A stretch of 64,000 bases of DNA from positions 310,001-374,000 of the forward strand of contig NZ_JASNJD010000002.1 in assembly GCF_030164425.1 (NCBI RefSeq), read 5' to 3'. The position numbers were made by a program, and so were the translations under genes. Below, piece after piece: positions 3,234-10,054 of this stretch. The notes below the pieces were generated by a model, which was not told the DNA's origin, did not search any database, and worked only from the letters and a program-made list of their open reading frames with translations. Origin of the DNA: Pseudodonghicola flavimaris (GTDB taxonomy: Bacteria; Pseudomonadota; Alphaproteobacteria; Rhodobacterales; Rhodobacteraceae). Each line of letters starts with the position of its first letter. The first letter of the stretch is position 1.

Positions 3234-4151
3234 TTAGCCCAGAAACCTGCGCTCTTCGATCAGCGCCAGCAATTGCGCCAGAGAGCTTTCCAGCGACTGG
3301 CCGGAGGTGTCGAGCTGGGCCTGCGCCCGGGCATAGAGAGTTTCGCGGCTGGTCAGGATCGACTGCAACTGCTCCATCGCCTCGGGGTTGCCGGCCATCG
3401 GCCGCTCGTCCCCCTGGGCGCGGACTCGGGCCATATGCTCGTCCGGAGAGGTCTTCAGCCAGATGGTGTGGAAATGGTCGAGCAGCGCGTTGAAGGTCTC
3501 CGGCTCCGCAACGATGCCGCCGGCCACCGCCAGCACCATGCTGTCATGGGTGGCGATGATCCGCGAAATCGCCTGCGCCTCCAGCTTGCGGTATCCCTCC
3601 TGACCATAGAGCGCCATGACCTCGGACACCGGCATGCCGCTCTGCTCCTCGATCTCGCTGTTCAGCTCGACAAAGGGGATGTTCAGCGCCTGGCCCGCCA
3701 GCGCGCCCAGCGTCGATTTGCCGGCACCGCGCAGGCCGATCAGGCAAATCCGATGCGCCCTGAGGGTTTCCGCCGGCTCGGGGTTCAGCAGCCGCAAAAC
3801 CGCCTGTTGCACGTCACTGCTGGAGCTGCGGAACAGGTCGGCGACCCGCAGCGCGTCGGAGTTCCAGGGGTCTTCCTCCCCCACCAGCCATTCGATGCGA
3901 TGATCCAGCGCGCTGGCGACGCGCTGCAGCAGACCGATGGAGATATTGCCCTCTCCCGCCTCGAGCTGCGCCAGATAGCGCGGCGAAACGCCCGAGATGT
4001 CCGACAGCACCCGGCGCGGAATGCCGCGCCGCTCGCGCGCCCGGCGCACCCGGTCGCCGACCCGTTGAATCAACGCGCTGACTTCGGCCTCCAGCCGGGT
4101 GGCCTGCGATTGCGGCGTTGCTTCGCCTCGGAAGTTGGTGATTTCTGTCAT
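3234..4151 (-). CDS. boxR: BoxR, benzoyl-CoA-responsive repressor of the box pathway
   Basis: A 305-residue fusion of an XRE-type helix-turn-helix (about residues 30-90, with GIPRRVLSDISGVSPRYLAQ) and a shikimate-kinase-like domain starting near residue 133 with the P-loop GLRGAGKST (139-147). This architecture is that of BoxR and BzdR, which repress aerobic and anaerobic benzoate genes and release DNA when the kinase-like domain binds benzoyl-CoA. The gene lies inside the operon it should control. The 114-bp gap upstream contains one TGCA half-site at 4176-4179, which hints at weak autoregulation but is not a full operator. Likely targets are the TGCA-N6-TGC sites at 9.5, 12.55 and 15.95 kb. 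Confidence 0.93.
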   Translation of the reverse strand: MTEITNFRGEATPQSQATRLEAEVSALIQRVGDRVRRARERRGIPRRVLSDISGVSPRYLAQLEAGEGNISIGLLQRVASALDHRIEWLVGEEDPWNSDALRVADLFRSSSSDVQQAVLRLLNPEPAETLRAHRICLIGLRGAGKSTLGALAGQALNIPFVELNSEIEEQSGMPVSEVMALYGQEGYRKLEAQAISRIIATHDSMVLAVAGGIVAEPETFNALLDHFHTIWLKTSPDEHMARVRAQGDERPMAGNPEAMEQLQSILTSRETLYARAQAQLDTSGQSLESSLAQLLALIEERRFLG

Positions 4152-4265: not shown

Positions 4266-4709
4266 TCAGGGACAGATCAGCGGCAGCACCAGATCGCGGA
4301 TCGGCGGCGGCGCCTCCTGCGAGGTGAAGCTGTCGGCCACGGTGAAGACATTGACGAACTGCCCCTTGAAGCAGAGCGTACCGTCCTGCAGCCCGTCGAC
4401 CCGGAAGGTGATGGATTTCTGCCCCAGACGGCTCGGCCAGACCCGGCAGATCAGCCGGTGGCGCGGCGTGACCGGCGACAGGAAATCCAGGCTCATGTGG
4501 ACGAAGGGCGTCCCCATGTTCAGGTCCAGCTCCATGTGATACCAGCCACCGCCCAGGTGGTGATCCCACCAGGCGTCGATGGCATCCAGCGCGAAATAGG
4601 GCAGCCGGGCGGTATAGGCGATCCTCGCCGGATCGCAGTCCGCCCAGGTCACCCGGATGCTGTGCTCGAAGGGGGGCGGCAGATTCTCCGCCGCGGCCGG
4701 TTCCGTCAT
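4266..4709 (-). CDS. 4-hydroxybenzoyl-CoA thioesterase-family acyl-CoA thioesterase
   Basis: A 147-residue single hotdog-fold protein of the 4HBT type. The N-terminal WADCDPARIAYTARLPYFALDA segment matches the family's active-site loop, with D26 in the position of the catalytic Asp of the Pseudomonas enzyme. It begins 9 bp downstream of the boxA stop, so it is cotranscribed. In box clusters such thioesterases are thought to hydrolyse CoA esters that accumulate as dead ends, or benzoyl-CoA itself, to free CoA. Substrate is inferred from context only. Confidence 0.88.
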   Translation of the reverse strand: MTEPAAAENLPPPFEHSIRVTWADCDPARIAYTARLPYFALDAIDAWWDHHLGGGWYHMELDLNMGTPFVHMSLDFLSPVTPRHRLICRVWPSRLGQKSITFRVDGLQDGTLCFKGQFVNVFTVADSFTSQEAPPPIRDLVLPLICP

Positions 4710-4718
4710 CCGCCCGTC

Positions 4719-5915
4719 CTAATAGGTTTCGACGTGGTAGCGCCCTTCGCCGCGCATGGTGTCGCGCAGCGCCCCCCAGGGCTGACCAATGCTCTCGGCG
4801 ATATTGGTCAGGGTCTTTTCCACCCCTTCCTCCATCCCGCGTAGCCCGCAGATATAGATATGGGTGTTGGGATCGGCGAGCATTTCGGCCACCTCCTCCT
4901 CTTCCGACACCATGCGGTCCTGCACGTATTCCTTGTCTTGGCCGGGCACCCGGCTAAACACCAGATGTTTCTTCAGCAGCGCATCGGGCACTTTGTTGAG
5001 CGGGCCGAAATACGGCAGGCTGTCAGGGCTGCGAGCGCCGAAGAACATCACCATGCCGCCGGATTTGGCCCCGACCGTCCGCTGACGGCGCATGGTGAAG
5101 GCGCGCATCGGCGCCGATCCGGTGCCGGTGCAGATCATCAGCAACCGCGCCTGCGGGTCATCGGGCAACAGGAAGGTGGCGCCAAAGGGTCCGGTCAGCC
5201 GCACCTTGTCGCCCTTTTTCAGATCGCAGACGTAGTTGGAGCACAGCCCGCGGTCTTCCCGCTTCACGGTCAGCGACACGTTGTTGAAATTCGGCCGTTC
5301 GCCGTCGCGCGGGCTCGACACCGAATAGAGCCGCGGCAGATGCGGTTTACCCTCGGCGTCCTGCCCCGGCGGGATAATGCCCACGCTCTGCCCCTCCAGC
5401 ACTGGAAAGGGTAGCCCGCCCAGATCCAGGATGATGTGACGCACATCGGTGTCGGCGCCTTCCGCCGTCAGCCGATAGTTGCCCTGCACCGTCGCCACCG
5501 CGGGCTTCGACAGGTTGTACATGTTGATCGTCGGCTTGGAGGCACTGGCCGGGGCCTTGGCCTTGCCGCCGGCCCCGGCATGCGCCTCGGCCAGCAGCGC
5601 CGCCATCGCGTCGTCGAGCGCCTCCAGCCCGGTTTCCGCCTCGCCGCCGGCGGTCTCGATCTCTTCCTGCGCCGGCAGTTCGTCCCAGTCGAACTGCGCC
5701 TCCAGCGAATAGGGCTCGTTCACCACCCGCCACTCGTCGATGGAGCCTGTGGGGCAGACCGGGATGCAATCCATGCAGAAATTGCACTTCTCCGCATCGA
5801 CCACGACGTTGTTGTCGTCATGTTCGATCGCCTCAACCGGGCAGGTCATTTCGCAGGTGTAGCAGCGAATGCAGATTTCAGGGTCGATCAGATGCTGTTT
5901 CAGCGGTTTATTCAT
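4719..5915 (-). CDS. boxA: BoxA, reductase component of benzoyl-CoA 2,3-epoxidase
   Basis: A 398-residue iron-sulfur flavoprotein that passes electrons from NADPH to the diiron epoxidase BoxB. The N-terminus has two [4Fe-4S] ferredoxin motifs, C15-C18-C21-C25 ([12 protein letters not shown]) and C44-C47-C50-C54 ([12 protein letters not shown]). A linker rich in Ala, Gly and Glu follows, then a ferredoxin-NADP reductase module with RLYSVSSP for FAD and [12 protein letters not shown] for NADP, ending in ...GRYHVETY. The start MNKPLKQHL is chosen because it overlaps the stop of the upstream 58-residue gene in an ATGA, while longer frames run into that gene. Confidence 0.95.
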
Positions 5916-6088
5916 GGAGTCTCGCGCTTTTTGCTCAGGATCACCTCTGGCACCACCAGAGCGTCGATCAGCGCCATGCAGAGGCCGACACAATTTTCGC
6001 AGCCGACGCAGGGCCCGTTGAGCTGAGAAATCTCAACCGACAGGGCGTTCAAACGGGGCGTTTCGGATTTGGACCTGCTGATGTTCAT
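5912..6088 (-). CDS. Small cysteine-motif protein translationally coupled to boxA
   Basis: A 58-residue protein whose TGA overlaps the boxA ATG by 4 bp. The start at 6088 ([16 protein letters not shown]) is preceded by GACGGAG 8 bases upstream, a good ribosome site; a longer in-frame start lacks one. The middle contains [11 protein letters not shown], giving C27-x2-C30-x2-C33-x3-C37. This is the spacing of a [4Fe-4S] ferredoxin ligand set but without the usual following proline, and the protein is too short for a full ferredoxin fold. I do not know a named family for it. Placement between boxB and boxA suggests a role in electron transfer or cluster maturation for the epoxidase; that is inference. 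Confidence 0.75.
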
Positions 6089-6247
6089 GGCAGATGCTCC
6101 GTCTTGCGTGGGTTTTGTGTCGAACCGGACTGGCAGACCGGATCCCGGAAAAAGCACTTCCGATTCCTACTCTACCACATCCCGGACCATCACGGCAAAA
6201 TCGCCTTGGCGGAGCGCGGGGGTCCGGCCCGGGGCAGCCCGCCCCGA

Positions 6248-6270: not shown

Positions 6271-7722
6271 TCAAGCCATGTGCAGCTTGACGTATTCGAA
6301 GTCGCCGGGCTTGTTGTCGATCCCGACCTTCGGCGGCGCGATCCAGCTGGCATACTGGCCCGGCTCGGTGCAGGGCTTCATCAGCGACTGGATGAAATCG
6401 CCATCGGCGTGGGTCGGCAGCCATTCGGTGACGCCGGCATCGTATTCGGCGCCGCTGACCAGCTGGCCCTCGGGGTTGAACAGCTTCTCGGCGAAGACGC
6501 CGATCTTGCGGTTGAAGGACTCATGCGGCAGCTTCATCTCGAAAGCGACGCCGTATTTCTCGATGATCTTGTTCCAGCGGGTCACGCCACCCTGCGCATC
6601 GCGGGTGTAATCGTCGCGCAGGCGCATGTTGATCGCGGTCAGTGCCGGCACTTCCTTCTGCACCGCCTTGCCGTCCTCGAAATCCCACACCGTATAGGTG
6701 TCGGCCTGCAGCATGTGATCGTCCTTGATCCGATGCTCCATGTACCGGCCCTTGATCCCGGCATTGAAGGCATTGGCCGCGTTGGTCGAAACCTCCTGGC
6801 CGAACAGGTCCAGCGACAGGGTGTAATGCAGGTTCAGCTTCTTCTGGATGGTCGGCAGGTCGATCACCCCGAAGGAGCGGATCTTCTCGATGTCATAGGG
6901 ATCCTCGATCCCGTGCTCCTGCATCACCTCACAGGTCTTCTGGATGGTGCGGCCGACCCCGGTTTCGCCCACGAACATGTGGTGCGCCTCTTCGGTCAGC
7001 ATGAAGCGGCAGGTGCGGCTCAGCGGGTCGAAACCCGATTGCGCCAGGCTTTCCAGCTGCATCTTGCCGTCGCGGTCGGTGAAATAGGTGAACATGAAGA
7101 AGGACAGCCAGTCCGGCGTTTCCTCATTGAAGGCCCCCAGCATCCGCGGCGCCTCTTCCGAGCCGGACGAGCGCAGCAGCAGATCGTCCGCCTCTTCGCG
7201 ACCGTCGCGGCCGAAGTACTTGTGCAGCAGATAGACCATCGCCCAGAGGTGGCGGCCTTCCTCCACATTGACCTGGAACAGGTTGCGCATGTCGTAGAGC
7301 GACGGTGCCGTCAGGCCCAGGAATCGCTGCTGTTCGACCGACGCGGGCTCAGTATCGCCCTGGATCACGATCAGCCGTTTCAGCAGGTTGCGGTATTCAC
7401 CGGGAACCTCCTGCCAGGCGGGCTCGCCGAAATGCTCGCCGCAGGGGATCGTGCGCCCCTCGACCTGCGGTGCCAGCAGGACGCCCCAGCGGTATTCCGG
7501 CATCTTGACATAGTCGAACTTGGCCCAGCCCTTGGGGTCGACCGAAACGGCAGTGCGCAGATAGACCAGCGACTGCTGGAAATTCTGCGGGATCAGGTCC
7601 GACCACCAGTTGATATAACCGGGGTGCCATTTTTCCAGCGCCTTCAGAACCCGCTTGTCCGAGCTGAGCCCGACGTTGTTGGGAATTTGCGTGTCATAGC
7701 TGACATTGATCAGATCGAGCAT
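6271..7722 (-). CDS. boxB: BoxB, diiron oxygenase component of benzoyl-CoA 2,3-epoxidase
   Basis: A 483-residue class I diiron oxygenase that converts benzoyl-CoA to its 2,3-epoxide with O2 and electrons from BoxA. The six metal ligands described for Azoarcus evansii BoxB are all present with an offset of +5: E125, E155 and H158 (VEEGRHLW), D216 (FTDRDGK), E245 and H248 (TEEAHHMF). Length and the N-terminus (MLDLINVSYDTQIPNNVGL) match the family. A GGGAGAGG ribosome site lies just before the ATG. It is the second structural gene after boxC, separated by 55 bp. Confidence 0.97.
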   Translation of the reverse strand: MLDLINVSYDTQIPNNVGLSSDKRVLKALEKWHPGYINWWSDLIPQNFQQSLVYLRTAVSVDPKGWAKFDYVKMPEYRWGVLLAPQVEGRTIPCGEHFGEPAWQEVPGEYRNLLKRLIVIQGDTEPASVEQQRFLGLTAPSLYDMRNLFQVNVEEGRHLWAMVYLLHKYFGRDGREEADDLLLRSSGSEEAPRMLGAFNEETPDWLSFFMFTYFTDRDGKMQLESLAQSGFDPLSRTCRFMLTEEAHHMFVGETGVGRTIQKTCEVMQEHGIEDPYDIEKIRSFGVIDLPTIQKKLNLHYTLSLDLFGQEVSTNAANAFNAGIKGRYMEHRIKDDHMLQADTYTVWDFEDGKAVQKEVPALTAINMRLRDDYTRDAQGGVTRWNKIIEKYGVAFEMKLPHESFNRKIGVFAEKLFNPEGQLVSGAEYDAGVTEWLPTHADGDFIQSLMKPCTEPGQYASWIAPPKVGIDNKPGDFEYVKLHMA

Positions 7723-7777: not shown

Positions 7778-9436
7778 TCAGACCCGTTCCATATTGTAAT
7801 CGCCGCGGATGCCGGTGCCGTAGCGCTGCAGCGCCCCGTCCTTGCCCACCGCGTTCGGGCGCTGGAAGATCCAGTTCTGCCAGGCCGTCAGGCGGCCGAA
7901 GATCCGGGTTTCCATCGTCTCGGGACCGGCGAAACGCAGGTTCGCCTCCATCCCGGTCATCGCATCGGGGCTGAAGCTGGCGCGTTCCTCCATGAAGATG
8001 CGCACCTCGTCTTCCCAGTCGATATCGTCGAAGGCATAGGTGATCAGCCCCAGCTTGTCGGCCTCGTCGGCCTCCAGTGGCTCACCGATCTTCTCCTTCA
8101 GCGCCTCGACCGCTTCCGGCGCGCCGAGGAACCGGGTCTCCAGCCGGCTCAGATCGTTGCTCATCGGATAGAGACCGAAGTTGGCCGGCGTCAGCGTCAC
8201 GGTGGCCAGCGGCCGGTTGTCGCCCTCGAACTCCTCCAGCATCATGTAGCTGCGGTCGCAGGCCCAGAGCAGCTCGGCCAGGACCCCGGCAAAACAGCTG
8301 CCGTGCTCGACCATCGCCACCATCGAGCGCGAGGTCAGATCGACCCGTTTCAGCACCCGTTTCCAGTATTTCAGGATCTCGTTGGCCAGCCAGTGATCGG
8401 CATTGTCCATCAGCAGCTTTTCATGCGCGATCAGCTTTTCCGGATCGCCCTGGCTGGCGAAGGCCAGCAGGCCGATCTCGCGTTCGTTCAGCCGCAGATG
8501 CAGGATTGCATCGTCCAGTTCGCGCGCCAGCCGCAGCATATATCCGTCGCTGCCCTGCGCCTGCACCTCCTCCATCGACGCCGGCGCCTCGGCATCCGGG
8601 CCGGACAGCGTGATGGTCGCCTTGCGGCCGTCGCGATCGATGCTCACCTCGACCAGAGAATAGGTGATGCTGTCGTCGCCGAAACGGCGGTCCAGCGGCT
8701 TCAGCGCGATGCCGGTGGCGCCGGAGACCTTGGTCGACTGTGCCGCGAATTCCTTGGCACGCTCCTGCACCGCGGCGTCGAACTTGGAGTTCGGCACCAC
8801 CTCGTCCACCAGCCGCCAGTCGACGGCACGCTGGCCCTTCACCCCTTCCTCGACCGAGCAGAAGACATCGGCCAGATCGCGGCGCACCTTGCGCTTGTCG
8901 GTGACCCGGGTCAGCCCGCCGGTGCCGGGCAGCACCGCCAGCAGCGGCACTTCGGGCAGCGCCACCGAGGAGGAGCTGTCGTTGGTCAGCATGATATAGT
9001 TGCAGGCCAGGGCCAGCTCGTAACCGCCACCGGCGCAGGCGCCCTTGACCGCCGCCACGTATTTCTGGCCGGAGTCCTCTTCCGCCGCCTCAAAGGTGTT
9101 GCGGGTCTCGTTGGTGAATTTGCAGAAGTTCACCTTGTGCGCGTGGCTGGCGCCGCCCAGCATGCGGATATTGGCACCGGCGCAGAACACCTTGTCCTTG
9201 CCCGACTGCATCACCACCACCTTCACCTCGGGGTGTTCGAAGCGCATCCGCTGCACGACGTCGGCCAGTTCGATATCGACGCCCAGATCGTAGGAGTTCA
9301 GCTTGAGCTGATAGCCATCGAACAGCCCGCCGTTCTCGTCCACATCCATGAACAGATTGGCGACCTCGCCATCATACTCGACCCGCCAATGACGGTAGCG
9401 GGAAGGGTCGGTTTGAAAATCGATCACTTTGGCCAT
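7778..9436 (-). CDS. boxC: BoxC, 2,3-epoxybenzoyl-CoA dihydrolase
   Basis: A 552-residue crotonase-superfamily enzyme that hydrolyses 2,3-epoxybenzoyl-CoA, opening the ring and releasing formate to give 3,4-dehydroadipyl-CoA semialdehyde. Crotonase hallmarks are visible in the N-terminal half (KDKVFCAGANIRMLGG for the first oxyanion loop, CAGGGYELALAC for the second). A second crotonase-like half follows, ending TGIRGDYNMERV. First gene of the boxCBA unit, with operators at 9506-9519 and 9592-9615 upstream. A GGAGCGC ribosome site precedes the ATG. Confidence 0.96.
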   Translation of the reverse strand: MAKVIDFQTDPSRYRHWRVEYDGEVANLFMDVDENGGLFDGYQLKLNSYDLGVDIELADVVQRMRFEHPEVKVVVMQSGKDKVFCAGANIRMLGGASHAHKVNFCKFTNETRNTFEAAEEDSGQKYVAAVKGACAGGGYELALACNYIMLTNDSSSSVALPEVPLLAVLPGTGGLTRVTDKRKVRRDLADVFCSVEEGVKGQRAVDWRLVDEVVPNSKFDAAVQERAKEFAAQSTKVSGATGIALKPLDRRFGDDSITYSLVEVSIDRDGRKATITLSGPDAEAPASMEEVQAQGSDGYMLRLARELDDAILHLRLNEREIGLLAFASQGDPEKLIAHEKLLMDNADHWLANEILKYWKRVLKRVDLTSRSMVAMVEHGSCFAGVLAELLWACDRSYMMLEEFEGDNRPLATVTLTPANFGLYPMSNDLSRLETRFLGAPEAVEALKEKIGEPLEADEADKLGLITYAFDDIDWEDEVRIFMEERASFSPDAMTGMEANLRFAGPETMETRIFGRLTAWQNWIFQRPNAVGKDGALQRYGTGIRGDYNMERV

Positions 9437-9591: not shown

Positions 9592-9615
9592 CACACTATT
9601 GTGCACTATTGTGCA
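9592..9615 (-). promoter_or_regulatory. Putative BoxR operator with 10-bp tandem repeat (site B)
   Basis: Two tandem copies of CACTATTGTG (9594-9613) create, on the minus strand, overlapping TGCACAATAGTGCA (9602-9615) and TGCACAATAGTGTG (9592-9605). The site overlaps the last codons of the DUF309 gene and is about 96 bp, roughly nine helical turns, from site A, which would allow looping. Confidence 0.55.
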
Positions 9616-10054
9616 TATAGAATCGAGACGCTTGCAACAGCGCCTCGGCCCGGCCCGGGGCAATGCCCATCGCGGCGGCCCCCTCGGGCCCCGCCTCCGC
9701 CAGATGGGCATGGGCGCGGGCCGCGATCCGGGTCACCGCCGCAGGACGGCCCATGCGCGCCTTCAGCCCGGCATTGGCCACCTGGATGACGCCCTGCGCG
9801 AAGACCCGGGCACGGGAATTCTGCGGCAGCGCCATCCAGACCGGCTCGAACAGCTCATGCGCTTCCCAGCAATAGCCGGCGTCGAGAAACCGCCAGCCGC
9901 CACACCAGGCCGCGCTTGCCGCCAGATCCGCCACCGACATCCCTTGCCGCGCCGTCGCGGTCAGCGCCGCGAAAGCCCCCTCCGCCGGGCGCGGTGTCCG
10001 CCCCGGCAGATAAGGCCCCGGAAGACAGGACGCGGAGGGCGGCGGCACCGGCAT
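9596..10054 (-). CDS. DUF309 domain protein
   Basis: A 152-residue protein with the DUF309 signature CWEAHELFEPVWMALPQNSRARVFAQGVIQ, a helical family of unknown function. Its ATG directly follows the TGA of the alpha/beta hydrolase gene (TGAATG), so translation is coupled. Its last codons run through the tandem CACTATTGTG repeat that forms operator site B. The association with a benzoate operon suggests an accessory role, but no activity can be proposed. Confidence 0.82.
   Translation of the reverse strand: MPVPPPSASCLPGPYLPGRTPRPAEGAFAALTATARQGMSVADLAASAAWCGGWRFLDAGYCWEAHELFEPVWMALPQNSRARVFAQGVIQVANAGLKARMGRPAAVTRIAARAHAHLAEAGPEGAAAMGIAPGRAEALLQASRFYMHNSAQ

Follow-up and report, generated by a model that had tools for sequence, protein, structure and literature searches.

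The window, the stretch of 64,000 nucleotides of Pseudodonghicola flavimaris DNA that was analysed here, carries a box gene cluster for benzoyl-CoA epoxidase and its partners. The features considered below are the following:

3234..4151, minus strand: gene for a BoxR-type regulator with an HTH and a shikimate-kinase-like domain (NF006015, E 8.2e-118; Pfam SKI and HTH_3).
4266..4709, minus strand: gene for the 4HBT-type thioesterase of the box cluster (Pfam 4HBT_2).
4719..5915, minus strand: boxA, the reductase of benzoyl-CoA epoxidase (TIGR03224, E 9.8e-165).
5912..5915, minus strand: ATGA stop/start overlap of the small gene and boxA (sequence).
5912..6088, minus strand: gene for a 58-aa Cys4 protein, referred to here as the small gene (translation, homologues, invariant residues).
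5978..6010, minus strand: C-x2-C-x2-C-x3-C motif, residues 27-37, a probable [4Fe-4S] site (sequence; weak PsaC similarity).
6097..6100, minus strand: GGAG ribosome-binding site, 8 nt ahead of the small-gene ATG (sequence).
6169..6198, minus strand: promoter-like element TTGCCG-N18-TAGAGT, 80 nt ahead of the ATG (pattern count).
6271..7722, minus strand: boxB, the diiron benzoyl-CoA epoxidase (TIGR03225, E 3.8e-275).
7778..9436, minus strand: boxC, 2,3-epoxybenzoyl-CoA dihydrolase (TIGR03222, E 1.2e-288).

BoxA, BoxB, BoxC and the BoxR-type regulator all score above their NCBIfam cut-offs. The available text of PMC5489048 describes the reduction of BoxB by BoxA/NADPH. The box locus is flanked by a LacI-YcaQ gene pair, and a TRAP dctM relative also belongs to this neighbourhood. 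A DUF309 protein is encoded between boxC and a hydrolase gene (9596-10054, minus strand). A relative of it was matched in 42 of 106 loci, many of which are too short to contain one, and in one locus without box genes (L064) it lies directly ahead of the small gene.

The TGA of the small gene occupies 5912-5914 and the ATG of boxA 5913-5915, while translation of the ORF places the four Cys of the product at C27, C30, C33 and C37. The earlier note had described a short ORF with a ribosome-binding site, an ATGA junction into boxA and four Cys, and the sequence bears this out. Where the two genes overlap, the arrangement of stop and start makes it likely that the small gene is translationally coupled to boxA.

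Conservation was followed in the family, which here means the family group to which the window belongs (394 genomes). In NCBI taxonomy, the named relatives belong to Paracoccaceae or Roseobacteraceae, order Rhodobacterales. Matches to the small gene at E<=0.01 were found in 65 of the 394 genomes, with that in G314 judged spurious. A contig scan confined to close relatives matched two Antarcticimicrobium, Pseudodonghicola xiamenensis and Seohaeicola saemankumensis. The P. xiamenensis locus is identical to that of G138 (L007/L080), a genome of the same genus group as the window, and the S. saemankumensis locus (L008) is identical to that of G005. Residues C27, C30, C33, G35, C37 and P47 are invariant in all 68 aligned rows, an alignment that retains one identical pair (L007/L080) and leaves out L059 and L069 (frameshifted), L073 (spurious) and duplicate loci of one genome. 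Also outside this alignment are four divergent ORFs that were found later (L082, L097, L102 and L105), in which the four Cys are kept but the tail is not. The protein has 53-60 aa in 60 of the 68 rows. Pairwise dN/dS is 0.20-0.33 for the window, L005, L006 and L010, and reaches 0.86 in remoter pairs. Conservation of so small an ORF in relatives rules out a chance occurrence. Both the reading frame and the cysteines, on whose conservation in relatives the gene had been staked, are conserved in the family genomes.

The spacing of the four Cys suggests that they probably hold an iron-sulfur cluster. The window protein reaches no Pfam or NCBIfam cut-off; its best Pfam match is Fer4_18, at 14.9 bits versus a cut-off of 27, and the best across 60 relatives is Fer4_21 (E 5.2e-4). 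The best PDB profile matches are the motifs of PsaC, with an E of 7.4e-5 summed over two motifs that are each weak singly. Bacterial 2[4Fe-4S] ferredoxins and PsaC, members of the Fer4 clan, have the same Cys spacing and this weak profile similarity, but they have two motifs whereas the window protein has one. Specifically, it lacks the pair of CxxCxxCxxxCP motifs looked for in a Fer4 protein, and the residue that follows its fourth Cys is Met rather than Pro. The N-terminal 2[4Fe-4S] domain of BoxA, encoded at the same locus, shows the same spacing twice in most BoxA rows. BoxA differs from the small protein in these two motifs and in its FAD/NADPH domains. In BoxA of L090, L092 and L099, from genomes without the small gene, a full second CxxCxxCxxxC is missing from the first 62 residues.

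An AlphaFold2 model built from a five-sequence alignment has a mean pLDDT of 51, with two helices and no strands, and a model this poor does not support a ferredoxin fold. The low-confidence model and the failure to pass a family cut-off would also suit a metal-free, disulfide-bonded or zinc-binding small protein acting as a scaffold or stabiliser. Such a protein is very unlikely here, as four Cys within 11 residues, at ferredoxin spacing, would suit a cubane better than zinc.

With a single four-Cys motif in a chain of 58 aa, the window protein has the hallmark of semidoxins or half-ferredoxins, represented by PD1 of Thermoanaerobacter and designed semidoxins. In the available text of PMC12648291 these are likewise short and carry one four-Cys [4Fe-4S]-type site. 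The stringent set described there is of ~30 aa, versus mostly 53-60 aa here, and PD1 was modelled as a beta-alpha-beta homodimer (PMC12648291), a fold that does not appear in the low-confidence model of the present protein. Unlike semidoxins, the window protein has no Pro right after its fourth Cys, the family has an invariant Gly between the third and fourth Cys and an LPxxVL-like tail, and the small gene adjoins an oxygenase gene. The same text, from an InterPro-signature search, reports that short one-motif ferredoxins are rare and occur almost only in anaerobes (PMC12648291). As the window protein lies below the Pfam cut-offs, a search of that kind may miss this family.

boxB was found in 81 of the 394 family genomes. 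Immediately 3' of boxB, 60 of these 81 have a Cys4 ORF, in 53 cases between boxB and boxA. One of the 53 (G017, L082) has diverged too far for its homology to be certain. Homologues in this interval, which had been put forward as a check on the gene, are thus present elsewhere in the family. The stop/start overlap is conserved too: 37 of the 53 loci have ATGA (G005 counted by hand, from the identical locus L008), 3 have a one-base overlap and 13 have other spacings. In four further genomes (G080, G213, G220 and G390) the Cys4 ORF follows boxB and boxA is not next, and in three more (G139, G240 and G302) an ORF with a variant motif does so, again without boxA next. Seventeen of the 81 have boxA next to boxB without an intact Cys4 ORF, including G009, where the copy is frameshifted. 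The remaining four have neither next to boxB (G344, G102, G056 and G378), with the boxB locus of G344 and G102 at a contig edge and not readable further. The gap between boxB and boxA is 192-601 nt with the Cys4 ORF and -4 to 238 nt without it, ranges that include three named loci.

Counted by tblastn-type matches over the 394 genomes, with G314 dropped, 55 have both the small gene and boxB, 26 have only boxB, 9 have only the small gene and 304 have neither (Fisher p 1.8e-37, kinship uncorrected). The small gene is not present wherever boxB is, as a core Box component would be, and a Box gene set can exist without it. On a quick 81-row BoxB tree its presence and absence take 12 changes at the fewest, 8 of them forced by firm branches.

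Genomes in which boxA is elsewhere or missing separate the two neighbours of the small gene. In both G213 and G080, boxA is found on a different contig. Its neighbours there, assigned by eye, resemble ligases and hydrolases in G213, and hydrolases and boxC in G080. In both genomes the small gene still adjoins boxB. In the 99% complete G390, boxB and the small gene are present and boxA was not matched at E<=1e-20; a flavodoxin-like gene, similar at 60% identity to those described below, lies away from its cluster (L165 4951-5412). G220 also has boxB and the small gene without a boxA match, in a genome that is only 75% complete. By this comparison, the small gene is more closely linked to boxB than to boxA. 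Its position, and the fact that it stays beside boxB in G213, G080 and G390, support a link to BoxB. The earlier note had also considered assistance in cluster insertion into BoxA, and this role is disfavoured. In G213 and G080 the small gene does not accompany boxA, and 16 genomes with adjacent boxB and boxA have no Cys4 ORF, besides the frameshifted copy of G009. A dedicated insertion factor for BoxA was rejected on these grounds.

In five box clusters boxA is replaced by a gene for a flavodoxin of ~152 aa, between boxB and the thioesterase gene (loci L087, L097, L102, L105 and L106). Pfam Flavodoxin_1 matches on two of the five have E values of 1.4e-24 and 2.3e-22. No boxA above cut-off was found anywhere in these five genomes. 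The flavodoxin appears to serve BoxB as another source of electrons. Beside boxB in G139, G240 and G302, all flavodoxin loci, the small protein has the variant motif CxxxCxxCxxxC, which occurs in 0 of the 57 remaining Cys4 loci; the flavodoxin loci of G056 and G378 are without any Cys4 ORF. On the best tree of BoxB, two changes account for the variant rows, and the firm branches are compatible with one. Because these branches allow a single origin, the pairing of variant and flavodoxin is only suggestive.

An attachment to boxB could also mean that the small protein is a maturation or repair factor, either for the diiron centre of BoxB or for a Box Fe-S cluster, which would deliver iron or a cluster and have no role in turnover. 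The small gene is beside boxB, not boxA, in both genomes where the two are separated, as this would predict, and its frequent absence (the 12 changes, 8 forced, on the BoxB tree) suits an optional aid. A parallel is PaaD, for which such a role has been proposed. It too is a small accessory protein, encoded in the operon of phenylacetyl-CoA epoxidase, a relative of BoxB that likewise is a diiron CoA-ester epoxidase (PMC4498308). The available text reports that PaaD is needed in vivo and not in vitro, which is in keeping with such a factor (PMC4498308). PaaD differs in having about 170 residues and in being DUF59/SufT-like (PMC4498308), whereas neither a Pfam search with the window protein nor the profile of its relatives gave a match to DUF59 or to an Fe-S assembly family. 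A maturation role alone also leaves the altered motif of the three flavodoxin loci without an explanation. This explanation is unlikely, though it deserves serious weight.

The small gene also occurs outside box clusters. Nine boxB-less family genomes carry it, with the copy of G143 frameshifted, and no boxA match was found in any of the nine. The nine box-less loci described here are those of eight boxB-less genomes, leaving out G143, and the second locus of G383. The small gene adjoins the LacI-YcaQ pair in five boxB-less genomes, and four box-less loci have a TRAP dctM relative a few kb away at most. A shared partner was sought and rejected, as no neighbour is common to all nine loci. Presence in boxB-less genomes probably indicates another client or function there. 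On a LacI tree of 15 rows, the box-less rows need 5 changes (4-5 in bootstraps), only 2 of which are forced by firm branches, and they show no clustering against shuffles. In this tree G138, the congener of the window, groups firmly with two box carriers in a set of three rows. This grouping suggests that G138 lost its box genes and retained the small gene. Its box-less copy (L080) has all four Cys and a dN/dS of 0.16-0.26 against the window, L005, L006 and L010. Other box-less pairs have dN/dS of 0.22-0.86 with synonymous changes that are saturated or few, so that constraint on these copies is not well shown; part of their divergence may predate a box loss. At the second locus of G383 (L053), a copy of the small gene is flanked by a boxR homologue and by a gene that by eye is acyl-CoA-ligase-like. 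A TRAP dctM relative is close by and the 12 kb contain no match to boxABC, so that the locus looks like a decayed box cluster.

The promoter-like element of the window recurs at some of these loci. In 8 of 68 upstream regions the pattern TTGNNN-N18-TANNNT has its end 70-90 nt ahead of the ATG, versus a mean of 0.14 and a maximum of 2 in 500 single-base shuffles, a count in which kinship of the regions is uncorrected and which was made after the pattern had been noticed. L080 is one further carrier, at 69 nt. Nine loci in all, that of the window included, thus have the element, its end 69-81 nt ahead of the ATG; two of them, L074 and L080, are box-less. Choosing promoters by the best sigma-70-like score alone was unconvincing (4 of 58 regions at p<=0.05).

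These copies raise the alternative of a redox or regulatory small protein that is independent of the box genes, perhaps with its own promoter, and is kept in the box locus for another reason. The nine boxB-less carriers, five of them at the LacI-YcaQ locus, would fit this, as would the LacI tree, where 5 changes are needed and only 2 forced, the constrained four-Cys copy in L080 and the promoter-like element in L074 and L080. Against it stand the strong association of the small gene with boxB and the weaker sign of constraint in the other box-less copies. In addition, the nine loci have no neighbour in common, and YcaQ-LacI and dctM are box neighbours as well. On balance such independence is rather improbable. 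Oxygen sensing was among the roles listed in the earlier note. A sensor of oxygen or redox state that controls box expression, perhaps with BoxR, would be consistent with the small gene lying ahead of a boxR homologue in L079, L062 and L053. No DNA-binding domain was matched in the small protein and no boxR match was found in the five box-less LacI-YcaQ loci, and a sensor is very improbable indeed.

Wider searches gave nothing convincing beyond the family, whether in 385 alphaproteobacterial genomes, 388 Pseudomonadota genomes or a plasmid collection, the last of which gave no match at all. The profile was built from 60 of the 68 aligned rows. Among the 385 alphaproteobacterial genomes, 81 have boxB, 79 of these outside the family, and the profile found no homologue near boxB in the 79. 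It matched 24 of the 385 at E<=0.01, the genome of the window included, with a best other E of 3.8e-4. Several of the weak matches have internal stops or lie inside long frames, and those in the boxB carriers G494, G594 and G688 are far from boxB. In 28 non-family boxB loci that were read directly, the strand of boxB carries no Cys4 ORF up to a distance of 1.5 kb. Of the 388 Pseudomonadota genomes, 7 gave a match at E<=1e-4; six of these belong to the family, and the match in the seventh lies inside a 1017-aa frame. A literature search, with subscription journals mostly outside its reach, found no paper describing the small gene, and absence from print is not thereby established.

We tentatively propose, with somewhat less than even confidence, that the small gene encodes, in this one family of Rhodobacterales, an accessory iron-sulfur protein of benzoyl-CoA epoxidase with a redox role in the reduction of BoxB, and that it has another use too. 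Through its four invariant Cys a single chain would bind one [4Fe-4S] cluster, or a half-ferredoxin-like homodimer two, and the reduced protein would pass single electrons to BoxB, a possibility already raised in the earlier note. It may relay or buffer electrons alongside BoxA or flavodoxin as the main donor; as a second option, it may bring an over-oxidised diiron centre of BoxB back to the diferrous state. XylT-type ferredoxins, which are plant-type [2Fe-2S] proteins, reactivate catechol 2,3-dioxygenase. They share with this proposal the idea of a small Fe-S protein beside an oxygenase that re-reduces its iron, but no match to such a family was found here.

That the small gene stays with boxB across swaps of donor, and yet is dispensable, fits an auxiliary electron relay or reactivator, and also a PaaD-like maturation aid. 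An accessory role for BoxB is opposed by the lack of a homologue near boxB in the 79 non-family boxB genomes, by the 17 boxB-boxA loci without an intact ORF, by the two flavodoxin loci that have none and by the nine boxB-less carriers. A further point against it is that the account of Azoarcus-type BoxAB in the available text of PMC4498308 mentions no third electron carrier and has only minor BoxA needed.

Descriptions of benzoyl-CoA epoxidase comprise BoxA and BoxB, and a conserved third gene, found in one large family of bacteria, suggests a step in the electron supply of BoxB that has not been described. If the small protein binds a cluster, it would be a rare short one-motif Fe-S protein tied to oxygen chemistry, versus the mostly anaerobic occurrence given in the available text of PMC12648291. 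A bolder version, which we regard as doubtful, is a natural half-ferredoxin that dimerises to hold two clusters and serves a diiron epoxidase together with BoxA or flavodoxin, its Cys spacing re-tuned for each donor. If true, Dayhoff's proto-ferredoxin would have a living counterpart that is in use under aerobic conditions. The genome of the window itself encodes a flavodoxin on another contig (L166 4977-6676), 51% identical to the box-type flavodoxin, which adjoins an NADPH-ferredoxin-reductase-like gene (by eye), and a congener (L167) has the same pair.
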